Of a stretch of DNA of 64,000 nt, positions 9,892 to 24,948 are shown piece by piece. The notes under the pieces are model-generated. The model was not told the DNA's origin, searched no databases, and was given only the letters and a program-made list of their open reading frames with translations. The position numbers and the translations under genes were made by a program. Numbering within the stretch: the first letter of the stretch is position 1; each line of letters opens with the position of its first letter. The stretch comes from Nitrosomonas sp. Is35 (GTDB lineage: Bacteria > Pseudomonadota > Gammaproteobacteria > Burkholderiales > Nitrosomonadaceae): contig NZ_JAWJZH010000001.1 in NCBI RefSeq assembly GCF_033063295.1, forward strand, positions 3,038,001-3,102,000, in the 5' to 3' direction.

Positions 9892-10276
9892 TAGTAAAAT
9901 GCTCAAAAGCGTTTCTTACCCTGGAGCTACCGTACATGGTTTACGAAGCTCATTTCGTGATTGGTGTGGCGACAAAACCAATTTTCCACGGGAAGTTTGC
10001 GAAGCAGCATTAGCTCATGTGATCGAGAACCAAACAGAAGCTGCTTACCGGAGGAGTGATTTATTCGAAAAGCGACGTAAATTAATGGCGAGGTGGGGAG
10101 ACTATATTAGTGATCACTGCAAATTATAGGAGGCCCGGCCCCAAGCCGCCGAGTTTTAGAAGATGGATAATTGCGGTAGTATCAGGAGTTCTGTGTGCTG
10201 AGGTTGGGTAAAGATCTTAAATCATTACAGTTAATTACCTCCAATGATTTCTGCCTCAACTCTGGAAACGGATTGG

Positions 10277-11286: not shown

Positions 11287-11673
11287 TTACTTCGTTGCCG
11301 CATAGTAAGAGTGCATTTGATTATCCCAGGATTTGTCTGCCATATCCGGCCAGTGGTTCTTATCAAACCCCGGTGCATTTCTGAGGCGATCCTTATCCAC
11401 ATTCAGCACAAAGTGTTTTTTGCCTGAATCAAACTTCAATCGGTACCAAGGCACCGCAAACAGCTTGCTGCCTATTCCCAAGATACCACCAAAAGACAGC
11501 ACCGCATAACACACATTACCGGAGGCTGTATCCAGCATGATTTCTTTAATGTTACCCAGTTTTTCACCACCCTCGTTGCAAACAACATTGCCAACGAGTC
11601 TTTCCGAACCTGTCAAACGAGTTTCAGATGCTTTATTATCAGTACCATGCGTATTGCGATCTGCGTCATTCAT
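11287..11673 (-). CDS. PRC-barrel domain protein
   Basis: 128 aa from ATG 11673, chosen because AGGAG lies about 7 nt upstream; the longer open frame to 11799 has no ribosome site. Residues 18-90 form a PRC-barrel: GSERLVGNVVCNEGGEKLGNIKEIMLD split by the usual Gly turns, then YAVLSFGGILGIGSKLFAVPW. PRC-barrel proteins of this small stand-alone type are common in stress and envelope gene sets, with no settled function. A copy of the 16-bp regional palindrome (11808-11823) is 135 bp upstream, linking it to the neighbouring small envelope genes. Confidence 0.88.
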   Translation of the reverse strand: MNDADRNTHGTDNKASETRLTGSERLVGNVVCNEGGEKLGNIKEIMLDTASGNVCYAVLSFGGILGIGSKLFAVPWYRLKFDSGKKHFVLNVDKDRLRNAPGFDKNHWPDMADKSWDNQMHSYYAATK

Positions 11674-11807
11674 ATAAACTCCTGTCAAAAACACTATGGA
11701 TATAGGATTTTCCAATCCTACCGGTGACCATCGGAATCCGATGATTGAAGGTACAAGAAAATTACCACACCTCGTTGTAAATAATACAAGCCAAACCACA
11801 TGCGGTC

Positions 11808-11823
11808 GGTTCGCTAGCGAACT
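11808..11823. promoter_or_regulatory. 16-bp palindromic site 1 of 10 (regional regulon motif), weak match
   Basis: GGTTCGCTAGCGAACT, itself a near-perfect palindrome, is a weaker match to TGTRCGNTANCGYACA, 135 bp upstream of the PRC-barrel gene. Confidence 0.5.
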
Positions 11824-11892
11824 TACGCTACATCAAACGCCAAATACAACGGAAACAAGGCACCCCGCCGGAATCAGCGGAAGCATTGATGT

Positions 11893-11946
11893 GCCGGTTC
11901 TCAATTAACTTCCTCTCCGTTGGGTAGAAGTTAATTGAGAACCGGC
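11893..11946. repeat. perfect 20-bp inverted repeat, 14-nt loop
   Basis: The left arm at 11893-11912 (GCCGGTTCTC then AATTAACTTC) is matched exactly in reverse complement at 11927-11946. It lies between the start of the PRC-barrel gene and the end of the OmpA-like gene, both on the minus strand. It could end the OmpA-like transcript, though it is about 100 nt past the stop and has no T-run. A related AGAACCGGCA occurs again near 11995. Confidence 0.75.
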
Positions 11947-12049
11947 AGTTAAACTGATCAAACCGAATTCTTAATTGCTACAGCTAATTTGCTTAGAACC
12001 GGCAATGAAGCCTACGCAATATCCTTTCACATTCCTGTGGATATTGCTT

Positions 12050-12874
12050 TCAGCGCGAGGTGATATTGCCATTGTCATCGGAAAGAACGATTTCCACGCG
12101 CCGGTTCAATTGGCGGCTACCTGCGGAATCGTTGCTGGCAACCGGATAAGCCTTACCATAACCACGAGAAACGATACGGTCGCCGCTGATCCCGCTATCG
12201 ATCAAAGCCACTCGCACAGCATTAGCGCGCCGTTCGGAGAGCTCCTGATTGTAGCTGTCACTGCCAATGCTGTCGGTATGGCCTTCGATCAACACTTTGC
12301 GCTGGGAATATTGCCTGAGAAAATTAGCCAGCTTCTGCACGGTGCGCATTCCGCCCGGTTCCAGTTGAGACTGATTGGTACGAAACAATACATCGCCTAA
12401 TGTGATGACCAGACCGCGCTCCGTTTTTATGGCATTGAGTTCTTTGAGCTGCATTTCCTGTTCGGCAATAAGCGCCTGATCGAATGCCACCTGCCGTTTG
12501 GATTCGTCCGCCTCGGCTGTTCTCGCGTCCAGGAGGATTTTGTCACGCTTTCCGCCGGCGTTAGTAACAGCTAATTCAGCCACTTTTCCCCTGGCGGTTT
12601 CCTGTGCGATAGCGACTTGTTGATTGGCCATATAGGCCAGATGATTGACTGCGGTATCGTTTTCCCTGTTGTTTAAAGCAGTGTCCGCTTTTTCCAGAAA
12701 GCTGCTGGCTTCTTTCAATTCAAGTGCTGCCATATTGGTGATTTGGGGATTGGTTTGTGCATTGTTGTAATTGCGATGCGCTTCAGTCAGCGATGCATTC
12801 TGCGGTACCGAGCTGCAACCGGAAGCAGCAGCGGCAGCTATCAGAATCATAGAGAAATACCAGTTTCTTTTCAT
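12050..12874 (-). CDS. OmpA-family lipoprotein with N-terminal DUF4398 region
   Basis: 274 aa. The signal peptide ends in lipobox ASGCSS (Cys 20), so it is a lipoprotein. Residues about 25-110 resemble the DUF4398 helical region seen in the next gene upstream (AHRNYNNAQ...LKEASSFLEKADTALNNREND), followed by a coiled segment. Residues about 155-270 form an OmpA C-terminal peptidoglycan-binding domain: TNQSQLEPGG, EGHTDSIGSDSYNQELSERRA and NRRVEIVLSD. It should tether the outer membrane to the wall. It follows the DUF4398 lipoprotein gene by 18 nt in the same direction, so the two form an operon, and may derive from a shared ancestral domain. Confidence 0.92.
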   Translation of the reverse strand: MKRNWYFSMILIAAAAASGCSSVPQNASLTEAHRNYNNAQTNPQITNMAALELKEASSFLEKADTALNNRENDTAVNHLAYMANQQVAIAQETARGKVAELAVTNAGGKRDKILLDARTAEADESKRQVAFDQALIAEQEMQLKELNAIKTERGLVITLGDVLFRTNQSQLEPGGMRTVQKLANFLRQYSQRKVLIEGHTDSIGSDSYNQELSERRANAVRVALIDSGISGDRIVSRGYGKAYPVASNDSAGSRQLNRRVEIVLSDDNGNITSR

Positions 12875-12892
12875 GATAAATTCCTTTCAGGA

Positions 12893-13288
12893 TTATTGGG
12901 TTTGACGATCTATTTCTTTGCGCAGCACGCGGCTATCTTCCTGCAAAGCATCGGCTGCTTTCTGAGCCTTGGATGAACGCGCCATCGTTCCAGCCAGCTT
13001 GGCATCAATCTGAGCTTGCTCGGCTAGTTGCCGTGCCAGTTCATAATTTCTCTCCGTCATCGCGCGCTCGGCCGCATCCATTTTTTCCATCGCAGACTTG
13101 AGCTGTACCGGTGCAAATTCATTGCTGCCAGCACTCAGGGCATTATTCACCGCGGCTTTTGAAACCGCCATTTGTTCAGTCGGTGCCGGAATGCTTGCGC
13201 AACCTGCGATAAAGATGGCGGAGATTACTGCCACACCGGCTGTGAGCATCATTTGATGCGATTTTGTGTAATAAGAGTTCTTCATCAT
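12893..13288 (-). CDS. DUF4398 lipoprotein
   Basis: 131 aa with a signal peptide and lipobox IAGCAS near residue 30. The mature part is almost wholly alpha-helical and Ala/Glu-rich (KSAMEKMDAAERAMTERNYELARQLAEQAQIDAKLA), matching DUF4398. It is the first gene of an operon with the OmpA-like lipoprotein, and the regional palindrome lies 168 bp upstream of its start (13456-13471). A structural envelope role is inferred; no enzymatic motif is present. Confidence 0.85.
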   Translation of the reverse strand: MMKNSYYTKSHQMMLTAGVAVISAIFIAGCASIPAPTEQMAVSKAAVNNALSAGSNEFAPVQLKSAMEKMDAAERAMTERNYELARQLAEQAQIDAKLAGTMARSSKAQKAADALQEDSRVLRKEIDRQTQ

Positions 13289-13455
13289 CCTTTATCCATT
13301 GAATTAAATTTTGAACACAATTGTTGCAATGAATATTTATCACCCTTGTAACAATTGACTATTGATTGATAACTGGATCCAGATGAACCTAGCTTGGAAA
13401 TCAACCGGCTCTAAGATCATCGGAAGCCATTAGATGCTCTTTCTAAACAAAACAC

Positions 13456-13471
13456 AGTTCGCTAGCGCACA
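13456..13471. promoter_or_regulatory. 16-bp palindromic site 2 of 10
   Basis: AGTTCGCTAGCGCACA matches TGTRCGNTANCGYACA except at positions 1 and 4. It is 168 bp upstream of the DUF4398-OmpA lipoprotein operon, in a 333-bp gene-free gap (13289-13621) that otherwise holds only the terminator at 13545-13569. Confidence 0.65.
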
Positions 13472-13544
13472 TAAGTACCACGGCGAAGAATTGGAGGTGA
13501 CAAAGCGAATCAATCAGTGACCCGTATCAGTTATTACAAATACA

Positions 13545-13569
13545 AAACCCCGCTCAAGGAGCAGGGTTT
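13545..13569 (-). terminator. terminator of the PEP-CTERM gene
   Basis: AAACCCCGCTC (13545-13555), loop AAG, GAGCAGGGTTT (13559-13569): an 11-bp stem with one mismatch. Read on the minus strand it ends in TTTTGTATTTG, fitting rho-independent termination of the gene ending at 13622. Confidence 0.75.
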
Positions 13570-13621
13570 CGATGCGATACCCGATCTAGAATTATTTTCT
13601 AATGCTAGAAAAATCCTTTAT

Positions 13622-14155
13622 TTATGCAGCATAAACCGGCGAAAACTTAGTTTCTCTGCGAAATAACGAAAAACCGACTAATCCTAGACCGACAAACAAC
13701 ATGGCGTAGGTTTCGGGTTCAGGAACTGGCGAAATCTGGAAATTCCCAGAATAAGAACCGCTGTTATTCGGCCCGATAATATGACCCTCGACCAGCAGTT
13801 GATAGTTATCAGCAGCACTCAGCGGGCCGAAAGAAAAAACCGAAGTAGAACCGGCTATGCCCGAAGCTACCAGTGTAGCCGTAGAAGCATCAACCAATGC
13901 AAAGCTATCGATAAAGACATTAAAACCTAACAGATTAAAACCGCTGGTTACACTGGCTCCACCGCTCAACGCATCGAACGGTAACGTCACTGGATGAACG
14001 TCGCTGAAAGTTGAGGTTACTACATCATCGTTACCGAAAATCGCATTCCATGAAGGCGAAAATACCGGTGGTGTCAGCGCAGCACTGGCTGTTCCAATAC
14101 CTAATCCGAATGATAGCGCTATGACAGCAGTCAGTACTTGTAAATTTTTTTTCAT
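13622..14155 (-). CDS. PEP-CTERM sorting-signal protein
   Basis: 177 aa from ATG 14155, with AAAGG upstream. An N-terminal signal peptide (MKKNLQVLTAVIALSFGLGIGTASA) and a C-terminal PEP-CTERM signal (SPVPEPETYAML, membrane segment, RRE basic end) flank a secreted body of unknown fold. PEP-CTERM proteins are processed by an exosortase and usually belong to exopolysaccharide or biofilm matrix systems; no exosortase gene is in this window. The open frame extends 18 codons upstream to 14209 but without a ribosome site. A palindrome at 14236-14260 lies 81 bp upstream. Confidence 0.9.
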   Translation of the reverse strand: MKKNLQVLTAVIALSFGLGIGTASAALTPPVFSPSWNAIFGNDDVVTSTFSDVHPVTLPFDALSGGASVTSGFNLLGFNVFIDSFALVDASTATLVASGIAGSTSVFSFGPLSAADNYQLLVEGHIIGPNNSGSYSGNFQISPVPEPETYAMLFVGLGLVGFSLFRRETKFSPVYAA

Positions 14156-14235
14156 AATAATTACCTTTAAAGTCAATGCATTTCTTAAAGAATTTTTAAA
14201 AAATGGCAATCATAGTTTGGATTAGGAGATATTGA

Positions 14236-14260
14236 TTTTGGTTAACTACGTTAACTAAAA
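14236..14260. promoter_or_regulatory. GTTAAC-centred palindrome upstream of the PEP-CTERM gene
   Basis: TTTTGGTTAAC (14236-14246), TAC, GTTAACTAAAA (14250-14260): 10 of 11 arm bases pair. Its shape and position suggest a regulator binding site for the PEP-CTERM gene; it is unrelated to the TGTRCG palindrome. Confidence 0.5.
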
Positions 14261-14331
14261 TGGCAACTTCACTTACATACCTTTTCATCAAACACAATTA
14301 ATTACATTTTCATACTAGTCCTTCTTGATGA

Positions 14332-14559
14332 CTCACTCGGTGCGGTATAACACTTAAGATTAAAATAAACTCAGATTTTCCATTCGTATCTATCCGGAAT
14401 GAGAAATATGAGCTGGTTAATTTAACTGTGGAGCGAAACAAGCGGAATCTAGCTGACTTACTGAAGAATCGTGAAGAATATTCCAGCGCGTATTTGGACT
14501 CATTCCGGATCCGGAACAACAGTGAATTTCTAGCTGTTGCCCAGGTATTCCAGCATTGA
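14332..14559 (+). pseudogene. possible gene remnant, unidentified
   Basis: In the 452-bp gap 14156-14607 the plus strand is open for 75 codons with no start codon and ends at TGA 14557-14559. The translation is protein-like (FVSIRNEKYELVNLTVERNK, later NREEYSSAYLDSFRIRNNSE) but I recognise no family. The opposite-strand frame 14519-14310 reads poorly. It may be the 3' end of a lost gene or chance. The rest of the gap holds the palindrome at 14236-14260 and nothing else I can support. Confidence 0.25.
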
Positions 14560-14607
14560 GTCCGGATTTACATCGTTCGTAGAATCATTTTAATATTTAA
14601 ACGGATA

Positions 14608-14838
14608 CTACTTTTTATTCCGCTTATCACCGACCTCATGGCCTACGACGCCACCGACCGCCGCACCGCCGACCGTCCCGAGAGCACTGCCCCCCGTAAG
14701 GATGGCGCCGCCGACAGCACCGGCACCCGCACCGATCGCCGTGTTTCTATCCTGTGCCGACATTCCTGCGCAGCCTATTAAACCGGCTATCACTGCTAGG
14801 GTCACAGCACTGGCTGTAATTGTTCGCATCATTTTCAT
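14608..14838 (-). CDS. small glycine-zipper lipoprotein
   Basis: 76 aa with signal peptide and lipobox IGCAG (Cys 23). The mature part is a glycine-zipper membrane segment (AIGAGAGAVGGAILTGGSAL then GTVGGAAVGGVVGHEVGDKR), as in OsmB/YMGG-type outer-membrane lipoproteins induced by osmotic or envelope stress. It is the last of three small minus-strand genes (15469, 15169, 14838), so co-transcription is likely. Confidence 0.85.
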   Translation of the reverse strand: MKMMRTITASAVTLAVIAGLIGCAGMSAQDRNTAIGAGAGAVGGAILTGGSALGTVGGAAVGGVVGHEVGDKRNKK

Positions 14839-14893
14839 TGCAGCACCTTATCGTCGAATATCGAGATATAGGGAATTCCTATACGCATCAAAC

Positions 14894-15169
14894 TTATTTG
14901 TTACCTTTGACAGCGGCACTGAGTGTGTTCCAGGCGCTTTCCGCACCGCTCTTCATATGTTCCCAGGCTTCCTCGCTCGCTTCGCTCAGCTCTTTCAGCT
15001 TGGACTTCGTGGCGCCAATCTTCTGTTCCAGTTCTTCGATTTGATTTTCATATTCGATACGGACATCGGCTGCGGAATTCTTCGCCTCAGCTTTCAATTC
15101 TGCCAATTTAGCCTGCGCCAACTCGACTTCGGCTTCTATTTTTTGTTTGTATGCTTCTTTTGTGCTCAT
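14894..15169 (-). CDS. small coiled-coil protein
   Basis: 91 aa, highly charged and continuously helical (KIEAEVELAQAKLAELKAEA, then IEELEQKIGATKSKLKELSE), ending in an amphipathic AWEHMKSGAESAWNTLSAAV segment. No signal peptide, so it should be cytoplasmic. Such proteins occur beside BON/CsbD-type stress genes in many proteobacteria; function unknown. It lies 55 nt upstream of the glycine-zipper gene and 84 nt downstream of the next lipoprotein gene in the same direction. Confidence 0.75.
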   Translation of the reverse strand: MSTKEAYKQKIEAEVELAQAKLAELKAEAKNSAADVRIEYENQIEELEQKIGATKSKLKELSEASEEAWEHMKSGAESAWNTLSAAVKGNK

Positions 15170-15253
15170 AATATTTCTCCAATGTGAATAGATCCGGAAT
15201 TGTTTTCAGACTTTCCGGTGAGTCCGGTCAAAAATGACCCAATAGAACAAAAG

Positions 15254-15469
15254 CTAATTAGTAGCATCTTTAATTGTTTCTTTTATTTCTTTGCCAGTAC
15301 TTTTCAATTTATCACCGGCATCTTCGGCAGCATCGCGCACCTTCTCGCCGGGGCGCTGATCCAGAATGTCATCGACGTTATCCTTGACTGCTGAGGAATT
15401 CGCATTATTTTGGTCACAAGCGGATAGCGTTATGAGTGCGGCAATGATGAGGGGATAGCATGGTTTCAT
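15254..15469 (-). CDS. small helical lipoprotein
   Basis: 71 aa with lipobox LSACDQ (Cys 18). The mature part is charged and helical (VDDILDQRPGEKVRDAAEDA, DKLKSTGKEIKETIKDAT), like other small entericidin- or CsbD-like stress lipoproteins, though I cannot assign it to a named family. The regional palindrome at 15583-15598 is 114 bp upstream, and two more small genes follow in the same direction. Confidence 0.75.
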   Translation of the reverse strand: MKPCYPLIIAALITLSACDQNNANSSAVKDNVDDILDQRPGEKVRDAAEDAGDKLKSTGKEIKETIKDATN

Positions 15470-15582
15470 TTGTATTGCTCCATTTTAAGTTTTGCTAAGT
15501 TCTATACTGACTTGGCATTTTCTGTTGCACGTTCTTAACTTTCTAAGACTTTTACAGTTTAATGACACTATTGAATACCATC

Positions 15583-15598
15583 TGTACGGTGTCGCACA
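15583..15598. promoter_or_regulatory. 16-bp palindromic site 3 of 10
   Basis: TGTACGGTGTCGCACA, flanked by C and TA, 114 bp upstream of the small lipoprotein gene starting at 15469. Confidence 0.7.
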
Positions 15599-15647
15599 TA
15601 ATGAGAAAGAAACCTGATTCCAGCGTTTGCAGTTTATCCGGTAACGG

Positions 15648-15788
15648 CTACCGGCCCTGAATGACGCGAAGCAGGATGACTATCAGCGCAATCACTAAAA
15701 GAATGTGAATAAGCCCTCCGAGGGTGTACGAGGAAACCAAACCCAGTAGCCACAAGATGATCAAGATGAGTGCAATTGATTCAAGCAT
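15648..15788 (-). CDS. 46-aa membrane protein (lmo0937/DUF5670-like)
   Basis: A short frame beginning ATG 15788, with AAGGAG 9 nt upstream, encodes MLESIALILIILWLLGLVSS followed by YTLGGLIHILLVIALIVILL and RVIQGR: two hydrophobic segments with a Gly-rich turn, the pattern of the lmo0937 family. The family is widespread and its function unknown. A weak, partial version of the regional palindrome may lie at 15848-15863, about 60 bp upstream. The small size lowers certainty, but the ribosome site and the family pattern support it. Confidence 0.75.
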   Translation of the reverse strand: MLESIALILIILWLLGLVSSYTLGGLIHILLVIALIVILLRVIQGR

Positions 15789-15917
15789 TTTTACTTCTCC
15801 TTGATAGTTCACTATTTGATGATATTTTTACGGCGAATCCTGCGGATAATGCGCTACCGTCCCGGCACATTGCGGCGCGATTCTCAGGAAAACCCAGATT
15901 CACTATGCCATTCTGCG

Positions 15918-17057
15918 CTAGAAGTGATAGTGGGCTCCGACTCCGATATATTCCACTTTGTTTTTAAAAAACTGCCCGCTCGAAGAGTGTCCGTCAAAGT
16001 ACTCGACCAGTAACTGAAGTTTCCTGCCAAGCACTTGCAAATTCTCAAACTCAATCCCGGCTCTGGCCGATATATCCGTACCCCAGTTATTTTCTTGAAA
16101 ATTTTTGAAGTCAGCCGCCAGGATTGGCCGCACGGGGGCAGATCCGATGCGCCATGGGCTGCGAAACTCAGCGCCGTATTGCACCATCCATACTTTGAGT
16201 GCAGAAGGTTCTTTATGAAACAGCCCGCCTCCGCCGCCATACAAGCGCACACCATAAGGAAACTCATAAGACAACCTCAGATCCACGCCTTCATAGCTGA
16301 GATTAACGCGCTCAAATGCAGAGCCTTCTTTGCGCAGCAGAAATTCGTCACCCAAATGTGAACTTTGATGATAAATGCGGCCAAAGGCTGAAAATTGTTT
16401 TGCCCGGAAACTTGAATATACCGATGCAATAAAATCGGAGTTCACCAGATCCGAAGATGGCGCACCCAGATTGAAGTCACTGAAGACGCCACCTTGCAGT
16501 CCGACTTCCCACTGTGCGACAGACTCCCCTAAATTCCTGCGGTAAATCGGTATCGTTTCACCGAAGCTCACGGAAGCGATATTTCTGCCATCAAAATTAT
16601 CGTTCTGGAAATTGCGGTAAGCGGCCGTGAAATGCGCCCAGCGGGGATCCGCTAATAACGGCTTGAATAGATGGCCAGCGGGTAAGAGTCCGGTGGGTAA
16701 CAATGCAGGATTGGCGGCTACGGCCGCCGGTTTCCCGGAAAATTGCTTGACCGGCTGCGAAGAAGCATTAGCCGCCGGTGGCTGGTACGTGACTTCCGCA
16801 ATCCTGACCGCATTCACGCCTGGAATCTCCGACAACACCCGCACCACGTTTGCTCGATCAACATTGCCTAAACTACCCGCAGGCAAAGTTATGGTGCCAT
16901 CCTGTACGGTCAATGATGGAATATCCAGCATCAATGTATGCTTTAACACGGCGGCCGCATAACCGGCAATGTAAGTATCATCCGGTATTGCAGCATGCAC
17001 TGCCTGCGCTGCTAGCAGCATGACTGCCAATGCTGCGGCAGATCGCAGATAAACCAT
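15918..17057 (-). CDS. outer-membrane protein, DUF1207-like, with BON-like N-terminal region
   Basis: 379 aa with a signal peptide cleaved near AVHAA. Residues about 25-90 (DDTYIAGYAAAVLKHTL...IPGVNAVRIAEV) resemble a single BON-type alpha/beta unit; the rest is beta-rich with alternating hydrophobic strands (VNLSYEGVDLRLSYEFPYGV) and ends in HYHF, the terminal aromatic of outer-membrane barrels. DUF1207 proteins are outer-membrane proteins of unknown role. The start codon overlaps the stop of the upstream BON lipoprotein gene (TAATG), so the two are translationally coupled and probably work together. Confidence 0.8.
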   Translation of the reverse strand: MVYLRSAAALAVMLLAAQAVHAAIPDDTYIAGYAAAVLKHTLMLDIPSLTVQDGTITLPAGSLGNVDRANVVRVLSEIPGVNAVRIAEVTYQPPAANASSQPVKQFSGKPAAVAANPALLPTGLLPAGHLFKPLLADPRWAHFTAAYRNFQNDNFDGRNIASVSFGETIPIYRRNLGESVAQWEVGLQGGVFSDFNLGAPSSDLVNSDFIASVYSSFRAKQFSAFGRIYHQSSHLGDEFLLRKEGSAFERVNLSYEGVDLRLSYEFPYGVRLYGGGGGLFHKEPSALKVWMVQYGAEFRSPWRIGSAPVRPILAADFKNFQENNWGTDISARAGIEFENLQVLGRKLQLLVEYFDGHSSSGQFFKNKVEYIGVGAHYHF

Positions 17058-17548
17058 TATTCTTTACTCGATGCATTCACATCCAGAATCAGATCATTCT
17101 GCACCGATCTCACATGTTCCTGGTTTGTTGCCACTTCGATCGCCTTGTCGATACTTTGCTGGGAATCAAGTGTACCGCTCAGGTGCACGAGGCCATTTTC
17201 GGTCGTCACTTTAATTTGAAATGCCTTGAGCAAAGAGTCGCTAAGAAGGGCCTTTTTTACATGCATCGTGATCACTGAATCATCAATGTATTGATCGGTT
17301 GTTTCAGATTTATCGCTGATCGACTTTTTTGCGTCATCGAGTTTCTTTTCTGCTTGCTCTGCTGTTTTCTCAATTTTCTTTTCAGCGTTTTCAATCGAAC
17401 GATCCAGTTTTTTCCCTGCCGTCTCAGCAGGCCCTTCCTTTTGGCAACCCGCCAAACCCATAACAATGGCTAAACCAGTAATCGTAAGTAAAAGGGCTTT
17501 TTTTGATTTTGCTACTGTATTTTGTTCGTTTTCAATTTTCATTTTCAT
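17057..17548 (-). CDS. BON-domain lipoprotein
   Basis: 163 aa. The signal peptide ends in lipobox LAGCQK; a long charged helix follows (KKLDRSIENAEKKIEKTAEQ) and then one BON domain, about residues 85-158 (YIDDSVITMHVKKALLSDSL, VHLSGTLDSQQSIDKAIEVA). BON domains are thought to bind phospholipid or support envelope integrity, as in OsmY. ATG 17548 has AAGGAAG 5 nt upstream. It is coupled to the downstream DUF1207 gene by a TAATG overlap. A palindromic site (17704-17719) lies 156 bp upstream. Confidence 0.9.
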   Translation of the reverse strand: MKMKIENEQNTVAKSKKALLLTITGLAIVMGLAGCQKEGPAETAGKKLDRSIENAEKKIEKTAEQAEKKLDDAKKSISDKSETTDQYIDDSVITMHVKKALLSDSLLKAFQIKVTTENGLVHLSGTLDSQQSIDKAIEVATNQEHVRSVQNDLILDVNASSKE

Positions 17549-17703
17549 CGTTCTTCCTTAAATTTTTCTTTAAATCAGCAACACGTGACATTCATATTCA
17601 GAAAAGCGTCATAGGGATGAGCGTCTCTCCATTCTGATGGAACGCTATGCACCATGAAACCTACTTTCTGTTTTAAAGATTAAGCGGAAGATTGAAGATG
17701 GTC

Positions 17704-17719
17704 TGTGCGGTATCGTACG
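17704..17719. promoter_or_regulatory. 16-bp palindromic site 4 of 10
   Basis: TGTGCGGTATCGTACG, 156 bp upstream of the minus-strand BON lipoprotein gene, in the 396-bp divergent gap 17549-17944. The gap holds this site, site 5, and no other structure I can support. Confidence 0.75.
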
Positions 17720-17814
17720 TAATGCTTTGAATAATTCTCTGCGATTGCTTTTTCTTGCCCGGTACCTTCTTAGTAGCCCCCCCTCAAGCACAGAATCGAT
17801 TCACTGCATAACTA

Positions 17815-17830
17815 TGTACGTTAACGTACA
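17815..17830. promoter_or_regulatory. 16-bp palindromic site 5 of 10 (perfect palindrome)
   Basis: TGTACGTTAACGTACA, a perfect 16-bp palindrome, 115 bp upstream of the plus-strand BON gene at 17945. Sites 4 and 5 are separate copies serving the two divergent genes. Confidence 0.85.
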
Positions 17831-17944
17831 GACCGTGATGGGTTTTGCAGTTAAATTGCTCGCCAGTGCCGCAGTTTTTCTCCATCGCATTATGTGATTG
17901 AGACATCGGTTATAAAACCCTAACAAGTAATAGGAGATTGAATC

Positions 17945-18259
17945 ATGAAACACTTTATCAAATTACTGTCTGCCTCTTTTTTGGCTTTAACCTTGCTGAC
18001 AGTTACAGGATGCGCATCAACCAAAACTCATGAGGGAACGGGTGAATACCTCGATGACAGCGTGATTACCACTAAGGTAAAAGCAGCCATACTGAATGAA
18101 CCCACATTAAGCTCCGCTGAGATCAACGTCGAAACTTTCAAAGGCATCGTTCAGTTAAGCGGTTTCGTTAGATCCACCGCCAGTATTAATAAAGCCATCG
18201 AAGTAGCAAGCAGTGTCGGTGGCGTTAAATCGGTCAAAAACAGTCTGCAACTCAAATAA
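17945..18259 (+). CDS. BON-domain lipoprotein (single BON)
   Basis: 104 aa with lipobox VTGCAS (Cys 23) and one BON domain, residues about 35-103 (YLDDSVITTKVKAAILNEPT, VQLSGFVRSTASINKAIEVA). It closely resembles the BON domain of the divergent lipoprotein at 17057-17548 (shared YxDDSVIT and SINKAIEVA), so the two are paralogues. AGGAG lies 8 nt before the ATG. The catalase-like gene follows 59 nt downstream, probably in one transcript. Confidence 0.92.
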   Translation: MKHFIKLLSASFLALTLLTVTGCASTKTHEGTGEYLDDSVITTKVKAAILNEPTLSSAEINVETFKGIVQLSGFVRSTASINKAIEVASSVGGVKSVKNSLQLK

Positions 18260-18318
18260 ACAGAAAATTTTCTCATGCGCATGAATGGCTTCTGTGCGCA
18301 TCCCGGAGGTGCATTGAA

Positions 18319-19365
18319 ATGTTGAATAAAGGAAATTTGTTGTTGGCACTGATCACTTTCTTGCCAACGAGCGCTTTTAGTAATGAGCGCGTACCTGCGG
18401 ATGAAGCATCGGCGATTCAGGAGATTACGCGAATGGTGGAGGAAAACATTCGAGCCGAGACCAAGCAGGGTCCGGCTCATCGCGATGTGCACTTCAAGGC
18501 GCATGGTTGTGTGAAAGCGGAATTCCGTGTGCTCCCGCTACCTGCCTCAATGCAAATCGGGATCTTCGCAGAAGCGCGCAATTACCCTGCCTGGATCCGT
18601 TACTCCAATGGCTCTGGAAAAGTGCAAAATGACTCCGTTGGCGATGGCCGTGGAATGGCCATCAAGCTTATGGGTGTTGAATCCAGCCAATCCGGCACAC
18701 AAGATTTTTTGATGGTCAATCATCCGGTATTCTTTGTCAGAAATGCGGCAGAATATGTTGAATTTCAAAAAACTATTGCGCAGGATGCGCTTAATAAATT
18801 CTTTTTCCCGGGTTTCAATCCGCTGAATTTCCGTCTGCATGAACTTGCCACTGCTATCGCGATCCGCAGCAAGAAGGTTGAAAACCCGCTGGATATTCAA
18901 TATTGGAGCGCAACGCCTTATCGTTTTGGCGAAAATACCGCCATGAAGTTTTCCGTTCGTCCTTGCGGCAAACCCAGCCGGTCTTCATCTGCCGAAACTA
19001 CAGCGCCCGATTTCCTGCGTGAAAATATGCAAAAGCATCTCGCTAACGATGATGCGTGTTTCGATTTTATGGTTCAGCTCGGTACACATCCTGTCGCGAT
19101 GCCGGTCGAAGATCCCACCATCGCATGGAGTGAAAAAGATTCCCCTTTTGTGCCTGTAGCGAAAATAACCATTCCGGCGCAAACATTCACAGCATCCGAA
19201 CAACTGAAATTCTGCGAGGATCTTTCCTTCACGCCGTGGCATGCTATACCTGATCATCAACCATTGGGAGGTATCAATCGTGTACGCAAGGCCGTTTACG
19301 AAACATCCTCACGTGTCCGTCATGAACTGAACGATATCGAACGCCATGAACCGAAGGGCTTCTAA
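18319..19365 (+). CDS. periplasmic catalase-like heme protein
   Basis: 348 aa with a signal peptide (cleavage near AFSNE). It is a short, catalase-core protein: the distal region HFKAHGCVKAEF corresponds to the H-A-K-G-x-G catalase signature, GDGRGMAIKL to the D-x-R-G core motif, and YWSATPYRFG to a conserved core segment. Members of this SrpA-like family may act as peroxidases; some lack true catalase activity, and the axial Tyr is not certain here. It lies 59 nt after the BON lipoprotein gene, suggesting joint expression under the palindromic site. It ends tail-to-tail with the GGDEF gene, overlapping by 4 bp. Confidence 0.85.
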   Translation: MLNKGNLLLALITFLPTSAFSNERVPADEASAIQEITRMVEENIRAETKQGPAHRDVHFKAHGCVKAEFRVLPLPASMQIGIFAEARNYPAWIRYSNGSGKVQNDSVGDGRGMAIKLMGVESSQSGTQDFLMVNHPVFFVRNAAEYVEFQKTIAQDALNKFFFPGFNPLNFRLHELATAIAIRSKKVENPLDIQYWSATPYRFGENTAMKFSVRPCGKPSRSSSAETTAPDFLRENMQKHLANDDACFDFMVQLGTHPVAMPVEDPTIAWSEKDSPFVPVAKITIPAQTFTASEQLKFCEDLSFTPWHAIPDHQPLGGINRVRKAVYETSSRVRHELNDIERHEPKGF

Positions 19366-20093
19366 TCGTTACAAATCGTTTGCAAATCAGGTGGGTGTTT
19401 AACGTTTGTCTTGGCGCAGTACATGGCAATATCCGCTTGATTGATCAACTCACTGCAGTTTTTGCCATCGATAGGATAAACGGTAGTACCGATACTCGCT
19501 GATAGTACAATAGCATGGCCGTCTATCACATACGGTATGGACAACTGAGTACGAATCTTCTCCGTTACGACAGTCACATTTTCCGGATTATCCATTTCCG
19601 GCAGCATGATTAAAAATTCATCACCGCCATACCGGCAGGCTGTGTCACCGTAACGGATACACGCAACTAAACGTTCTGCAAACATTTGCAGAAGTCTGTC
19701 TCCTGTCGCATGGCCAAAGCTGTCATTAATGTTTTTGAATTTGTCCAGATCTATGAATAGCAATGCAATTTGCTTACGTTGCCGGTCGGATTGGGTTATC
19801 GCCTGTTGAAGCCGGTTCAGTAATAATCTGCGGTTAGGCAACTGGGTGAGTTCGTCGTAATACCCAAAATGATGAGCTTGTGTCAATTTTTTCGCAAATC
19901 GTACCAATTTTCTTCTTTGGCAAATATTGATTTTATTCAATATCTCAATTTGCTGTTGCGCTGCGACAAGCATTTGCTTGAGTATCGCTAGCTCCACGAG
20001 AGAGGACTGTAACTTCTCGGCGCTGACTTGATCGGAAGTATGCAAAAGTGCGGTATCAAAGTCTTCCGCGTTTAATGAATGCATTTTTTTCAT
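19362..20093 (-). CDS. GGDEF-domain diguanylate cyclase, soluble
   Basis: 243 aa. An N-terminal helical region (1-75) without membrane segments or a known sensor domain precedes a GGDEF domain (about 80-240). The active-site motif is intact (RYGGDEF), and an RxxD inhibitory site (RYGD) sits five residues before it, so it should make cyclic-di-GMP with product feedback. IS copy 2 begins 44 bp upstream of the start, so the native promoter may have been cut off. Start ATG 20093 has only a weak GGAAC nearby; ATG 20084 is an alternative. Confidence 0.93.
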   Translation of the reverse strand: MKKMHSLNAEDFDTALLHTSDQVSAEKLQSSLVELAILKQMLVAAQQQIEILNKINICQRRKLVRFAKKLTQAHHFGYYDELTQLPNRRLLLNRLQQAITQSDRQRKQIALLFIDLDKFKNINDSFGHATGDRLLQMFAERLVACIRYGDTACRYGGDEFLIMLPEMDNPENVTVVTEKIRTQLSIPYVIDGHAIVLSASIGTTVYPIDGKNCSELINQADIAMYCAKTNVKHPPDLQTICND

Positions 20094-20137
20094 TGTATTG
20101 TTCCTGCCACTTTTGTTTAATTTGGTTTATCAATCTA

Positions 20138-20941
20138 GGGCCTGTTAACGCTATTTGATATAATTTGGTGATGGAAATCACCGAAACTCAATATCAACAG
20201 ATCGAGCACTGCCTGCCGCGTCAGCGTGGCAACGTCAGCCATTCCAATCTGCAAGTTCTCAATGCCATTCTTTACGTTGCCGAGCATGGCTGCAAGTGGC
20301 GAGGACTGCCCAAGCGATTCGGCAACTGGCATACCATCTATACCCGCATGAATCGCTGGGCAAAGAGTGGTGTACTGAGCCATGTATTTGGGCAACTTCA
20401 GCATCAGCAAATCATCCGTATCCGTATTGAAACTGTTTCGCTGGACAGCACCAGCATCAAAGTCCATCCCGACGGTACGGGTGCGTTAAAAAAAACGGCC
20501 CCCAATCCATCGGAAAATCTCGAGGTGGATGGACCACCAAAATTCATCTGGTTGCCGCAGATTCCAGAACAACCATAGGCTTTGCCCTCTCGCCCGGTCA
20601 CGCCCACGATGCGCCAGAGGGCAGGCAGCTTTTGCTTTCCCTCGGTCCCGTCAATACGCCCACCTACCTGCTGATGGATCGTGCTTATGAGGGCGACCAA
20701 ACCCGGCAACTGGCACTAGATTTGGGTTACATCCCGGTTGTTCCGCCCAAAGCAAATCGCTTGTCACCCTGGGAATACAACCGTGCCATGTACAAAAAAC
20801 GCAACGAGATCGAACGATTGTTCAGAAGGCTCAAGGGATTTCGCCGCATCTTCTCCAGGTTCGATAAGCTCGATGTCGTCTTCATCTCCTTTATCCACTT
20901 CGCTCTCATCGTCGAAGCAATCAGATTGTGTTAACAGGCCC
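20138..20941 (+). mobile_element. IS5-family (IS427-group-like) insertion sequence, copy 2
   Basis: 804 bp with terminal repeats GGGCCTGTTAAC and GTTAACAGGCCC, which here are a perfect inverted pair, flanked by TA (or read more widely, CTAG) on both sides. It is in the same orientation as copy 1, exactly 11,050 bp away, and differs from it at about three bases. It lies just upstream of the GGDEF gene. Confidence 0.95.
20171..20934 (+). CDS. IS5-family transposase in two frames, copy 2
   Basis: Same organisation as copy 1: first frame from ATG 20171 to 20578, slippery run of eight A at 20488-20495, second frame to 20934. The only protein difference noticed is Asn for Ser in the VLxAIL segment. 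All DDE residues (SLDSTS, LLMDRAYEGD, NEIERLF) are present. Confidence 0.9.
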
Positions 20942-21011
20942 TAGTCAAATGCACGATAGGGCAAAGCATGCAAAACCCGGCACAAGCCCATTCTGTGATA
21001 TTGGTGCACGG

Positions 21012-21482
21012 CTATGGTGTTGCTTCGCCCGTGCGCTTGGTCTCGATCCTGACGTGAGCCGTACCATCCTTATGCATATCCAGTTTCTTAGCAGCTGCCT
21101 TAGAAACATCAATGACACGATCTTTGGCATAGGGGCCGCGGTCGTTAATTCTGACTTCCACTGTTTTATCATTATCGAGGTTGGTCACTTGGGCTTTGGT
21201 ACCCATCGGCAAACTCGGATGGGCTGCCGTCATCTTGGTTTGATCGAAGATATCGCCATTAGCGGTTTCCTTACCTTGAAATCCAGGTCCATACCAGGAT
21301 GCCTCGCCAATCTCAGTGCGTACTGAACGATCAGTGCCTCCCCTTTTCTCTTGCTGGGTCAGTTTGTTTTTTTCATTCCCATACTCTGAACTACAACCTG
21401 AAATCATAGCGGAGCAAAAAAACAATGCGATTGGCAAAATCCTCAAGAACTGTGCACGGCAGAATATGATCTGTTTCATCAA
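21012..21482 (-). CDS. RlpA-like septal-ring lytic transglycosylase family lipoprotein
   Basis: 156 aa with a signal peptide and lipobox ISGCSS. The mature part is a double-psi beta-barrel (about 60-150) with the RlpA motifs GEASWYGPGFQGKETANG, ...MTAAHPSLPMGT and VRINDRGPY. RlpA in Pseudomonas cleaves naked glycan strands; this protein lacks the C-terminal SPOR domain, so septal targeting is doubtful. Palindromic site 6 (21609-21624) lies 127 bp upstream. The plus strand has an open overlapping frame at 20928-21326 that is only a shadow. Confidence 0.9.
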   Translation of the reverse strand: MMKQIIFCRAQFLRILPIALFFCSAMISGCSSEYGNEKNKLTQQEKRGGTDRSVRTEIGEASWYGPGFQGKETANGDIFDQTKMTAAHPSLPMGTKAQVTNLDNDKTVEVRINDRGPYAKDRVIDVSKAAAKKLDMHKDGTAHVRIETKRTGEATP

Positions 21483-21608
21483 TTCTCCTGTATTATCAAG
21501 GTATAAATACGCTAAAAGCGCCGCAATCGATAGAACAGTGGAATATCGATTGCGTGTTTCTTATCAGTCCATCATTGGGTTATTTTTCTCTTATCCCCGA
21601 TATAAATC

Positions 21609-21624
21609 TGTACGTTCCCGCACA
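21609..21624. promoter_or_regulatory. 16-bp palindromic site 6 of 10
   Basis: TGTACGTTCCCGCACA, 127 bp upstream of the RlpA-like gene and 25 bp downstream of the first Crp/Fnr-type gene. Confidence 0.7.
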
Positions 21625-21648
21625 TATCATCGTGCGCCGGATTTATTC

Positions 21649-22368
21649 CTAGCCTAGAATTCTTTCGTACAGTGCTTTTTCCGTGCGATAGCACTCGCAG
21701 GAAGCCGCTTCCAGTCCGGTACGGTCGAGAATCTTAATATCTCCTCGTTTGTAACTGATTAATGCCTTATTTTGTAGAGAATTCGCCGCCTTAGTAATGC
21801 CGACACGCCGCACCCCCAACATATAAGCCAGGAATACATGCGTGACATGAAATTGATCTGATTGCGCCCGGTCCTGTGTCATCAATAGCCAGCGCGCAAG
21901 GCGAGCTTCCACCACATGGAAACGGTTACATCCAGCCGTTTGAGCAATCTGGCTCATTACAACATACAGGTAGCGTTTTAATTCCTGCTTAAATGCAGCA
22001 TTTGTCTCAATTTCTTGTAGAAATAAGGGGGCCGATAAGCGCAATGCCTGACCTGCTCCCTGAACCACTGCATTATAGGAGGCGACATTAATTGACAAGA
22101 TGAGAGGAAGACCGAACATGCCTTCATAACCGACCAATCCTACTTCCAGGTTGTGATTGCTATCAATCGGCGTGACCAGGGAAACAATGCTCGTGGTTGG
22201 GAAATAAACATGCGATATGGGATCGCCAGAGCGATACAGAGTGTCTGCAAAAACAAGTTCAGTTTCTACACAACGCGCAAGTAACTGTTCTGAATCATCG
22301 CTAGGTAAGGCAGCTAACAGATGATTAGTGCCGGTAACGACTGGAGCAAGTGACATCAGCATTCTCAA
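21649..22368 (-). CDS. Crp/Fnr-family transcriptional regulator A
   Basis: 239 aa. An N-terminal cyclic-nucleotide-binding-like beta-roll (about 25-140; VYFPTTSIVSLVTPID, VGLVGYEGMFGLP) is followed by a Crp-type winged helix with recognition region YMLGVRRVGITKAANSLQ. It lacks the four N-terminal Cys of Fnr, so an iron-sulfur cluster is not expected, and the Arg/Glu pattern of cAMP binding is not clear. Palindromic site 7 (22491-22506) lies 123 bp upstream, suggesting autoregulation. A paralogue follows at 22737-23444. I infer that one or both regulators bind the palindrome. Confidence 0.9.
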   Translation of the reverse strand: MRMLMSLAPVVTGTNHLLAALPSDDSEQLLARCVETELVFADTLYRSGDPISHVYFPTTSIVSLVTPIDSNHNLEVGLVGYEGMFGLPLILSINVASYNAVVQGAGQALRLSAPLFLQEIETNAAFKQELKRYLYVVMSQIAQTAGCNRFHVVEARLARWLLMTQDRAQSDQFHVTHVFLAYMLGVRRVGITKAANSLQNKALISYKRGDIKILDRTGLEAASCECYRTEKALYERILG

Positions 22369-22490
22369 AGTATAAAAATAAACCGGTTGATCAGTGAGAT
22401 ATCAGTATCCATATCTCTGAGGAATAAAGAAAAAGGTATTTGGCCCGACACGTTAAAAGGGGCAAGTTACATAAGAAAATTTTGATTGTC

Positions 22491-22506
22491 TGTGCGGTAG
22501 TGTACG
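22491..22506. promoter_or_regulatory. 16-bp palindromic site 7 of 10
   Basis: TGTGCGGTAGTGTACG, 123 bp upstream of regulator A, in the 368-bp gap 22369-22736. The gap also holds the terminator at 22609-22625. Confidence 0.7.
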
Positions 22507-22608
22507 TACCTGCATTTAGCTTGACACACCACGAAACACAGCTGATTAATCTACAAAGCCAATTTTTTGCAGCGAGAAATCACAAACCCGATGATTGATC
22601 GTTGAATG

Positions 22609-22625
22609 CCCCGGTTTTTCCGGGG
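22609..22625 (-). terminator. terminator hairpin of regulator B
   Basis: CCCCGG, TTTTT, CCGGGG: a 6-bp GC stem with a 5-nt loop, 112 nt past the stop of the minus-strand gene at 22737. Weak T-run. Confidence 0.5.
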
Positions 22626-22736
22626 ATTCTCAGTGTTGAATCAAACCCAAGTGACCGGCTCTTTCCGCTGGCGAGAGTAAGCTTGTGATCGATTGATTGC
22701 GTGAAAAAATAGATGATCAGTGTCGTCAGACAAAGA

Positions 22737-23444
22737 TCAGGGATGAAGTATACGATCGAATTCCTTCCTAACCACCTGATAGCATTCACAGACTCGTTCT
22801 TCCAATCCTTTCCGGTCCAGCACGATGATATGGCCGCGGCTGTATTGAATCAAACCTGCCTGTTGCAATTTTCCGGCCGCTTCAGTGACGCCTTCACGGC
22901 GTACGCCTAACATATTGGCAATTAATTCCTGCGTCATGGCCAATTCATTCGAAGAAAGACGATCGAGGCTTAGCAGCAGCCAGCGGCAGAGCTGTTGATC
23001 GACTGAATGATGCCGGTTGCACACCGCCGTTTGGGACATCTGGGTAATGAGTGCTTGTGTGTAGTTCAGCAATTTATGCAGTAGCGCGCCATGGCGGTTA
23101 AATTCTTGCATAAATAGCTGCTGCCGTACTCGATAGCAATATCCTGCGCTCTGCACTACGGCACGATTCGGCATGGTTTGCCCGCCCATGAAAAGAGCAA
23201 TACCGACAACTCCCTCAAAACCGACCACGGCAATTTCCGCTGAGGCGCCATTCTCCATCACATACAGCAGCGATATGATGCAATCCATGGGAAAATAAAC
23301 GTACTGGAGTTTTTCTCCTGATTCGTAAATCACATCGCCCAGGGGCATCTCGACCAGTTCAAGATGAGGAAAAATGCGCTGGTATTCTGTTTCCGGTAAC
23401 GCCGTCAGGAGGTGGTTTTTTTTAGGGCTGCAGTGCGTATCCAT
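22737..23444 (-). CDS. Crp/Fnr-family transcriptional regulator B
   Basis: About 235 aa from ATG 23444, chosen over TTG 23459 because GAGGG sits 9 nt upstream. Architecture as regulator A: beta-roll (YVYFPMDCIISLLYVMENGA, VVGFEGVVGIALFM) then winged helix with recognition region NMLGVRREGVTEAAGKLQ. It shares with A the C-terminal LDRxGLE...CECY segment, so they are paralogues. Palindromic site 8 (23527-23542) is 83 bp upstream and is shared with the divergent DUF3309 gene. The effector ligand is unknown. Confidence 0.9.
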   Translation of the reverse strand: MDTHCSPKKNHLLTALPETEYQRIFPHLELVEMPLGDVIYESGEKLQYVYFPMDCIISLLYVMENGASAEIAVVGFEGVVGIALFMGGQTMPNRAVVQSAGYCYRVRQQLFMQEFNRHGALLHKLLNYTQALITQMSQTAVCNRHHSVDQQLCRWLLLSLDRLSSNELAMTQELIANMLGVRREGVTEAAGKLQQAGLIQYSRGHIIVLDRKGLEERVCECYQVVRKEFDRILHP

Positions 23445-23526
23445 CACGTAAACCCTCAAATTATTATCAACAATATAGAAAAAACTATATGCCTTGAGCT
23501 TTATAACATATTCCCGCTCAATACAG

Positions 23527-23542
23527 TGTGCGCTAGCGTACA
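23527..23542. promoter_or_regulatory. 16-bp palindromic site 8 of 10
   Basis: TGTGCGCTAGCGTACA, placed between divergent genes: 83 bp upstream of regulator B and 88 bp upstream of the DUF3309-like gene. Confidence 0.8.
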
Positions 23543-23629
23543 GATTCTTCCGGGGATTATCGCTAGGCTGCCTGTGCTGTATTCAGATACGGCTTTTCAA
23601 TTTAACATTCTTTGAGCAGGAGTATTTCC

Positions 23630-23788
23630 ATGTCACTTAGCGCAATTTTACTTTTAATTATTATTTTGATGCTCGTTGGCGTCATACCCATCTGGCCACA
23701 TAGCCGTGGGTGGGGATATGGACCGAGTGGCGGACTGGGGTTGATCTTGACCATTCTGTTGATCTTAATTTTATTAGAAAAAATATAA
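23630..23788 (+). CDS. 52-aa membrane protein, DUF3309-like
   Basis: A short frame starting ATG 23630 with GCAGGAG upstream encodes MSLSAILLLIIILMLVGVIP, then IWPHSRGWGYGPSGGLGLIL and TILLILILLEKI: two hydrophobic segments around a PHSRGWGYGPSG centre, the DUF3309 signature. Function unknown; members accompany stress genes. A strong bidirectional terminator follows at 23898-23921. Confidence 0.85.
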   Translation: MSLSAILLLIIILMLVGVIPIWPHSRGWGYGPSGGLGLILTILLILILLEKI

Positions 23789-23897
23789 CTGTAAGTACTC
23801 GTGTTGTATTCATTTCTTAGTTTTGAGAATTTCTCCCAAAAAATTGACAAAACTACCCGATAGCCGAACCGTATACCCTTCCAAAAGTTTAAAAAAA

Positions 23898-23921
23898 AGC
23901 AGCGGGGATTAACCCGCTGCT
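23898..23921. terminator. bidirectional rho-independent terminator
   Basis: AGCAGCGGG (23898-23906) and CCCGCTGCT (23913-23921), a perfect 9-bp stem, with eight A before and a T-run after. It serves the DUF3309-like gene on the plus strand and the SmbP-like gene on the minus strand. Confidence 0.9.
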
Positions 23922-23951
23922 TTTTTATTGCTACCGGAATGAATTAAACCA

Positions 23952-24293
23952 CTATGCAGCTTGTTTCAAATGAGCCACTGCTTCTTCAGCAGCTTTCTTT
24001 GCTAAATCCGTAGCTCCGGATTTACCTTGCTTAATTGCTTCGTCCAGGCTCTTAATACCGGCATCGATATGTACAGCGGCATTTTTTGCGGAAGTTTTTT
24101 CGGCTTTTGAAGCATTTGCATGGGTTTTTGCTTCTTCGGCATGTTTAGCGACAGTTTTTCCATCGGTTGCTTTGATCGCTGCCTCAGCATGCTGGATCGC
24201 TTCATCCAGATGACTTTCGGCTGCAAGAGCACTAAACGAGCAAAGCGATATGATTAAGACGATGGCAAATAGAATATTGGTTTTTATGTTCAT
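23952..24293 (-). CDS. SmbP-like small metal-binding protein
   Basis: 113 aa with a signal peptide (cleavage near LAAES). The mature 90 residues are repeated helices of the type HLDEAIQHAEAAIK, AKHAEEAKTHA, HIDAGIKSLDEAIKQG and EEAVAHLKQAA, the layout of SmbP, a periplasmic copper-binding protein of Nitrosomonas europaea. This version keeps six His, fewer than I recall for the europaea protein, so metal capacity may be lower. It lies between the DUF3309-like and CsbD genes and is read with CsbD from the right. The family match is by recall, without alignment. Confidence 0.8.
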   Translation of the reverse strand: MNIKTNILFAIVLIISLCSFSALAAESHLDEAIQHAEAAIKATDGKTVAKHAEEAKTHANASKAEKTSAKNAAVHIDAGIKSLDEAIKQGKSGATDLAKKAAEEAVAHLKQAA

Positions 24294-24399
24294 TTTATAA
24301 TTCCAGTTAAATGCGTATTCAATAGATTGAGTTGTTGCTCCGTAACAGCCAGCCCGGAAATTCCGGCCAGACTGTTACAGATCAGTCACATGCGCTTTG

Positions 24400-24585
24400 C
24401 TAGCAAGTTTTTTTAGCTTCTTTGATGTCTTCTTTGGCATCGCCGACACCCGCCTGAATTTTTCCGACATTTTTCTGGATATTGCCTTTTACTTCCATTT
24501 CTTTATTGTCCAATATTTTGCCGGCAACTTCTTTAGCTTTACCTTTGGTTTCTTCGAAACGGCCTTTCACTTGATCTTTGTTCAT
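24400..24585 (-). CDS. CsbD-family stress protein
   Basis: 61 aa, the standard CsbD size, with the family motifs MNKDQVKGRFEETKGKAKEV and a second KGNIQKNVGKIQAGVGDAKE unit. CsbD-like proteins are small, soluble and strongly induced in general stress; their action is unknown. Palindromic site 9 (24684-24699) lies 99 bp upstream, GGAG is 4-8 nt before the ATG, and a partial hairpin (GTAACAG...CTGTTAC, 24341-24377) follows the gene. Confidence 0.92.
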   Translation of the reverse strand: MNKDQVKGRFEETKGKAKEVAGKILDNKEMEVKGNIQKNVGKIQAGVGDAKEDIKEAKKTC

Positions 24586-24683
24586 GATTGTCTCCTGACA
24601 ATTAACTTCAAGCGATGATCAAAACATGGAATCACGTCTCGCATCACTTGTTTGTAAGCCTATATACATCGCTACATTCAGTC

Positions 24684-24699
24684 TGTGCGACAACGAACT
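24684..24699. promoter_or_regulatory. 16-bp palindromic site 9 of 10, right half degenerate
   Basis: TGTGCGACAACGAACT: the left half matches fully, the right half only partly. It is 99 bp upstream of the CsbD gene in the 363-bp divergent gap 24586-24948, which also holds site 10. Confidence 0.5.
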
Positions 24700-24798
24700 T
24701 ATCCTGAAATAAATACCGGATCACCCCGGTTTCTTGAGATTTGTGCAGCAAAAACAGGCATCGCCGGTAACCGGGTTTGCCACTCCGGAGAGATTCTA

Positions 24799-24814
24799 TG
24801 TACGTTATCGCACA
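24799..24814. promoter_or_regulatory. 16-bp palindromic site 10 of 10
   Basis: TGTACGTTATCGCACA, a full consensus match, 135 bp upstream of the cyclic glucan synthase gene. Confidence 0.8.
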
Positions 24815-24948
24815 TACGCCCCTATATTCCGATCAGTATAATTTCCTTCAAACACAGCAGCAGAGGCCTATTCATCGCTAGGGCAATCCGGATGCAGAAA
24901 GATTTTAATCATAGTTTCACCGAAGTAATAAACACAGCGTAATGGTTC

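Follow-up and report, generated by a model that had tools for sequence, protein, structure and literature searches.

A candidate Crp/Fnr-activated general stress regulon marked by a directional 16-bp palindrome in Nitrosomonas sp. Is35

A 64-kb stretch of the 3.3-Mb genome of Nitrosomonas sp. Is35 (G000:C1:3038001-3102000; here the window) carries ten copies of a 16-bp palindrome, gathered in a 13-kb block that also encodes two Crp/Fnr-type regulators, RegA and RegB. Which factor reads these sites, and what might it control? A class II Crp/Fnr-activated general stress regulon, with the 16-mer as its operator, is the probable answer, and one that the sequences compared here let us hold with good confidence. 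The dedicated transcription factor and coherent regulon envisaged in the initial annotation are well supported by site placement, spacing, co-occurrence with the regulators and recurring targets. The two Crp/Fnr genes had been listed there merely as targets; they do have sites upstream, but most likely encode the factor itself.

Directional sites and a fixed -10 box

All ten 16-mers were found where the initial annotation had placed them, some 82-167 bp from the likely start codon of a gene (about 80-170 bp had been claimed; starts were picked by eye or by script). Each lies outside the mask of open reading frames (ORFs) of at least 100 aa, although the unmasked fraction comprises just 15% of the window's bases and, within the block, 31%. 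Scored with a leave-one-out matrix built from the nine others, eight of the ten exceed every non-site position of the window; the site at 11808 is beaten by two such positions and that at 22491 by one. The consensus first proposed is exact in three sites but too strict as a description of all, as 24684 needs three mismatches and 11808 (GGTTCGCTAGCGAACT, a TTCG variant) lies beyond three and is missed by a consensus search at that limit. Such a search returns 15 matches in the window where 6.3 are expected, a number reached in 1 of 100 shuffles, so that the signal resides in the strong sites and in their placement. A weaker eleventh candidate, at 14339, lies upstream of a PEP-CTERM-like gene.

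The further claim that no copy exists outside the block is true of the window but not of the genome. Of 11 genomic matches at up to one mismatch (reversed control, 4), 5 lie outside the block, as do 8 of 18 matches (reversed control, 3) to a composite promoter of palindrome and -10 box, which rules out a motif restricted to the block; genome-wide enrichment of the bare 16-mer at up to two mismatches was not found (37 versus 39 in the reversed control). Outside the block, such sites precede a secreted CsbD gene, an ApbA-type gene, a DUF326 gene whose upstream gap is common to a third regulator, and a gene for a small lysine-rich protein adjoining a fourth.

The sites are directional, a feature that the initial annotation missed. 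Read towards the gene, a -10 box (TAnnnT) follows the 16-mer after exactly 21 nt in 7 of 11 readings in the window, with an eighth, that of 24799, at 22; the flanks contribute T at -2 and GAC after the palindrome, giving the extended form TnTGTRCG-NTAN-CGYACAGAC. Placing the -10 box at -12 to -7 puts the palindrome at -49 to -34, with its centre at -41.5 and an overlap with a degenerate -35 (CAGACn). A two-fold symmetric operator so centred, together with a sigma70 -10 box from which the start is deduced, corresponds to a class II promoter. At the class II promoters of CRP, a two-fold site at -41.5 lies over a weak -35 and is followed by a sigma70 -10. The Escherichia coli protein thus shares site position and two-domain fold with the system described here and differs in its half-site, TGTGA as against TGTRCG.

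The 21-nt spacing was conceived from the window and then tried on independent loci. In a set of relatives (50 stretches, 804 kb, 14 other genomes, with eight short loci, L116-L123, left out), TAnnnT stands at offset 21 in 45 of 177 orientations (mean over offsets 3-60, 3.6) and, with near-duplicates removed, in 35 of 143; the flank tally still includes the eight short loci, several of which overlap longer stretches. Across 72 non-Nitrosomonas loci (763 kb; site cut-off, a score of at least 14), the corresponding figures are 113 of 387 orientations, a mean of 4.6 elsewhere, and 87 of 328 without near-duplicates. These distant loci hold 194 sites, at least one of them in 65 of the 72, where 30 column-permuted palindromic matrices averaged 6.4 and reached 42 at most. 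A 47-nt directional model, for which the 87 distant promoters were the sole training set, gives its top scores in the window to eight of the ten sites, each facing its gene (42.4 to 15.9, against a best chance score of 11.1 in 20 Markov windows).

Regulators and targets across genomes

The motif follows the regulator subfamily. Among 25 genomes grouped here as the genus Nitrosomonas (G000-G024), 10 carriers of the regulator hold 233 composite promoters versus 27 in reversed controls, and 15 non-carriers hold 25 versus 38; over the 10 carriers, regulator copy number and site number correlate with a rho of 0.96. In a survey of the class, 19 carriers (own genome excluded) average 4.0 sites (control, 1.2) and 165 non-carriers 0.78 (control, 1.07; carriers versus non-carriers, p 6.6e-7). 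Site density in the distant loci is 0.58 per kb in the 1 kb closest to the regulator and drops to 0.13 at 5 kb, and 140 of the 194 sites there fall outside ORFs, in a fraction holding 23% of the bases. Random genome-wide scatter, the outcome that the initial annotation had set against a regulon, is not seen, the sites being tied to intergenic DNA and to -10 boxes; conservation upstream of orthologues, which it had called for, is borne out by sites that recur before CsbD, BON and PRC-barrel genes in other genomes. For csbD, a site is present upstream of 16 of the 25 genes of carriers, upstream of none of the 5 genes from three non-carrier genomes and in 24 of 300 random stretches, a comparison that covers loci for 30 of 36 csbD hits and counts G034 as a carrier though its regulator is a contig-edge fragment. 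Within the genus, 9 of 10 carriers encode CsbD, as do 3 of 15 non-carriers.

RegA and RegB score above the cut-offs for PF00027 (34.5 and 29.1 bits) and PF13545 (60.1 and 52.5 bits), and their combination of a sensory domain of the cyclic-nucleotide-binding type with a C-terminal Crp helix-turn-helix places them in the Crp/Fnr superfamily; alignment assigns them the Crp/Fnr fold, at about 15% sequence identity to solved CRPs. Four members of the subfamily are found in the genome, these two and a pair of paralogues outside the block, and Nitrosomonas oligotropha Nm45 encodes a RegB homologue that is 94% identical. In 90 aligned regulators the recognition helix GVRRE is nearly invariant; C142, H146 and C219 are present without exception, C221 in 89 and C153 in 88. 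Membership of FNR/ANR is ruled out, no N-terminal cysteine column being kept in 20% or more of the 90, and so is membership of NtcA, whose NCBIfam model has a cut-off of 244.95 bits and scores the pair at 22.1 and 21.1. Our guess is a thiol or metal sensor, and a cyclic nucleotide may be the ligand. Regulator genes 73-77% identical to RegB also appear in spirochaete-named assemblies (L196, L199, L221, L237), by transfer or on misbinned contigs.

From downstream of sites with a fitting -10 box, 202 ORFs were gathered, many of them singletons and some clearly non-genes. By single-linkage clustering, with family names that rest on the Pfam matches of single members, the recurring targets are regulators (29), BON (15) and CsbD (14) proteins (profile recounts; earlier 13 and 17), squalene-hopene cyclase (8, at seven loci), a coiled-coil family that looks sll1863-like by eye (7), PRC-barrel (6), small lipoprotein (5), desaturase (5), DUF326 (4), OsmB-like (4), RlpA-like (4) and DUF3309-like (3) proteins. 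Many are lipoproteins, periplasmic proteins or lipid enzymes. The "envelope stress" theme of the initial annotation is nonetheless too narrow, since CsbD, KGG, DUF883-like and DUF326 proteins are also targets, and the mix is best read, from its gene families, as nearer to a general stress regulon. In Methylomonas and relatives (L170-L174, L204, L228), a squalene-hopene cyclase gene with its own site and -10 box points away from the regulator; hopanoid synthesis may be part of the regulon in methanotrophs.

Mechanism, alternatives and related systems

Under Crp/Fnr activation, a dimer of the subfamily (RegA, RegB or the two paralogues) would bind the palindrome, overlap the degenerate -35 and recruit RNA polymerase carrying sigma70 to the -10 box, 21 nt further on. 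Promoters of this kind would drive, in the block, the genes for CsbD, BON, OsmB-like, PRC-barrel, DUF3309, DUF4398 and cyclic glucan synthase proteins and, elsewhere, those for KGG and DUF326 proteins, desaturase, cyclopropane synthase and squalene-hopene cyclase.

Several observations weigh against this reading, and some of them suit a different factor that binds the palindrome and has the Crp/Fnr genes merely as members of its regulon. A site lies upstream of 45 of 80 distant regulators, yet a -10 box at offset 21 faces the regulator in just 5 of the 45, so that self-activation is not general and, as a rule for the distant loci, is unsupported. At least four sites occur in 4 of the 165 non-carriers, and 5 of the 19 class-level carriers have none or one. 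Two genus carriers show little excess (G005, 5 versus 4 in the control; G022, 7 versus 3), and the reversed control is itself somewhat higher in carriers of the genus (p 0.025). Within the window, 13456 (9.9) and 24799 (6.8) receive no support from the directional model beyond their 16-mers. Several locus sets were picked because they contain the motif or the regulator, so that their raw motif density is inflated and their -10 spacing is unaffected; composite promoter counts may score both readings of one palindrome, and kinship was handled in the statistics solely by dropping near-duplicates. Even so, a different factor is unlikely: in genus and class alike, motif number goes with the Crp/Fnr subfamily, both its presence and its number of copies, site density peaks at the regulator gene, and a two-fold site at -41.5 fits a Crp/Fnr activator.

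To an equal degree we doubt that the sites are repressor operators at which the Crp/Fnr proteins keep stress genes off in the absence of a signal. The palindrome, from -49 to -34, does reach the -35 hexamer; that hexamer, however, is degenerate, and base-exact spacing suits contact by an activator, where a repressor would allow other positions. Sigma-factor regulons, too, combine stress-type targets with a -10-like box at constant distance, and the palindrome might then be the -35 region of an alternative sigma factor promoter. This is very unlikely, as the upstream element is a two-fold palindrome of 16 to 20 bp and the -10 box resembles that of sigma70; no gene for a sigma factor was noticed at the loci, though no co-occurrence search for one was made. 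That the sites are a functionless dispersed repeat or chance matches is scarcely credible. The bare 16-mer, unenriched in the genome at two mismatches, and a transposase-like repeat beside and within the block would agree with such an origin, but spacing and placement are conserved in other genera, and a repeat origin is ruled out by sites that lie outside the repeat and have unlike flanks.

Activation by the Crp/Fnr subfamily can also be set beside known systems. In E. coli, RpoS controls OsmB-like, OsmY-like, CsbD/YjbJ, KGG/YciG-type, DUF883/ElaB-type and cyclopropane synthase genes, target kinds similar to those predicted here, through a sigma factor rather than an activator and operator. 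RpoS above the TIGR02394 cut-off was found in none of the 25 Nitrosomonas genomes, five of which are 75-89% complete, and in 8 of 41 genomes overall; G031 and G037 hold both RpoS and the regulator, which is therefore no simple RpoS substitute. The EcfG/PhyR general stress response of Alphaproteobacteria, with CsbD, BON and PRC-barrel type genes and a hopanoid link, has similar targets and is built on a sigma factor and an anti-sigma factor, unlike the activator predicted here. NtcA, the best NCBIfam resemblance of RegA and RegB, has a similar fold, a score far below the cut-off and a different site (GTA-N8-TAC). FNR recognizes TTGAT-N4-ATCAA and has an N-terminal cysteine cluster, neither of which is seen here. 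The low-oxygen-activated (lxa) locus of Burkholderia cenocepacia contains a BON-domain gene (PMC6127331), has six universal stress proteins as its hallmark and is linked to the ANR-like BCAM0049 (sources including PMC6127331); the likeness to FNR/ANR consists in Crp/Fnr-family control tied to a stress island with a BON gene. A description of this motif or regulon was not found in open-licence papers, and within that literature the regulon is best read as new in motif, regulator group and spread.

More tentatively, and with slightly less than even confidence, we envision a widespread and partly plasmid-borne stress response of Beta- and Gammaproteobacteria run by a Crp/Fnr activator, which could replace RpoS, control hopanoids in methanotrophs and perhaps sense redox state or metal through C142, H146, C219 and C221. 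Most general stress responses known from bacteria are run by sigma factors; what is predicted here, in nitrifiers without detectable RpoS, methanotrophs and Burkholderiales, is a regulon with such targets under an activator. Its base-exact promoter can be searched for in any genome. For many DUF and hypothetical genes the result is a prediction of regulator, operator, transcription start and targets, and a very large regulator family (at least 8000 clusters) gains a candidate role. Stress islands that carry their own activator and promoters also suggest how such islands are able to move as units.

Plasmid loci and features of the block

At E 1e-30, 69 plasmid records out of 72,556 encode the regulator. 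A Burkholderia multivorans plasmid (L297, 687-29361) combines two regulators with BON, PRC-barrel, DUF3309, CsbD, desaturase and glycine-zipper genes; 8 of its 10 hits to a GC-richer version of the site (score of at least 9) lie 58-291 bp upstream of a co-directional gene, and the best-scoring hit (20487) does not. B. cenocepacia L296, a locus without annotation, has one hit. On the conjugative plasmid pKLC102 of Pseudomonas aeruginosa (L262, 84782-103480), a subfamily regulator has GH94, methyltransferase and desaturase genes in its vicinity. Both there and on an Acidovorax plasmid the regulator is near a gene of the cyclic glucan synthase type, as in the window. Among the first four plasmid loci, L264 has one strong site and L262 and L265 have weak ones, whereas none was found at a score of at least 11 in L263.

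Table 1. Operators, -10 boxes and genes of the block (window coordinates; scores are those of the directional model)
Feature	Position	Strand	Details
Operator, TTCG variant	11808..11823	-	-10 TATTAT 11781-11786; predicted to drive PRC-barrel gene; score 34.7, gene-facing
PRC-barrel protein	11287..11673	-	PF05239
Operator	13456..13471	-	Imperfect -10 TCTAAT 13429-13434; score 9.9, below best chance score
DUF4398 lipoprotein 12893-13288; DUF4398-OmpA protein 12050-12874	12050..13288	-	Two genes
Candidate eleventh operator, weak 16-mer	14339..14354	-	-10 TAGTAT; score 15.0 (chance best 11.1)
PEP-CTERM-like gene	start 14155		183 bp downstream of candidate operator 14339
Operator	15583..15598	-	-10 TAAACT 15556-15561; supported by model
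Small lipoprotein 15254-15469; sll1863-family protein 14894-15169; OsmB-like 14608-14838	14608..15469	-	Putative single operon of three genes; OsmB match below its cut-off
Operator	17704..17719	-	-10 TAATCT 17677-17682; supported by model
BON protein 17057-17548; DUF1207 protein 15918-17057; lmo0937-family protein 15648-15812	15648..17548	-	
Operator, exact consensus	17815..17830	+	-10 TAAATT 17852-17857; score 42.4, highest in window
BON lipoprotein 17945-18259; catalase-domain protein 18319-19365	17945..19365	+	
Operator	21609..21624	-	Poor -10 AAAAAT 21582-21587; score 15.9
RlpA-like protein	21012..21482	-	DPBB_1
Operator of RegA	22491..22506	-	-10 TAACTT 22464-22469; score 21.0
RegA, Crp/Fnr-type regulator	21649..22362	-	ATG at 22362 or 22356
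RegB, Crp/Fnr-type regulator	22737..23444	-	
Operator common to RegB and DUF3309	23527..23542	both	Score + 34.4, - 3.7; RegB side -10-like TATAAA 23500-23505; DUF3309 side TAGGCT 23564-23569
DUF3309 protein	23630..23788	+	
Operator	24684..24699	-	-10 TAGGCT 24657-24662; score 28.4
CsbD protein 24400-24585; small metal-binding protein (SMBP) 23952-24293	23952..24585	-	
Operator, exact consensus	24799..24814	+	-10 TATAAT 24837-24842 (22 nt, not 21); score 6.8
GH94 cyclic glucan synthase-type protein	24949..33675	+	Start codon uncertain

The SMBP gene comes after csbD and is co-directional with it. A GGDEF diguanylate cyclase gene (19362-20093) lies within the block without a site of its own. The transposase-like repeat is a pair of 825-bp copies, 99.3% identical (9079-9902 and 20128-20952), which by eye resembles a small two-frame transposase; one copy is inside the stress block and the other 2 kb outside it.

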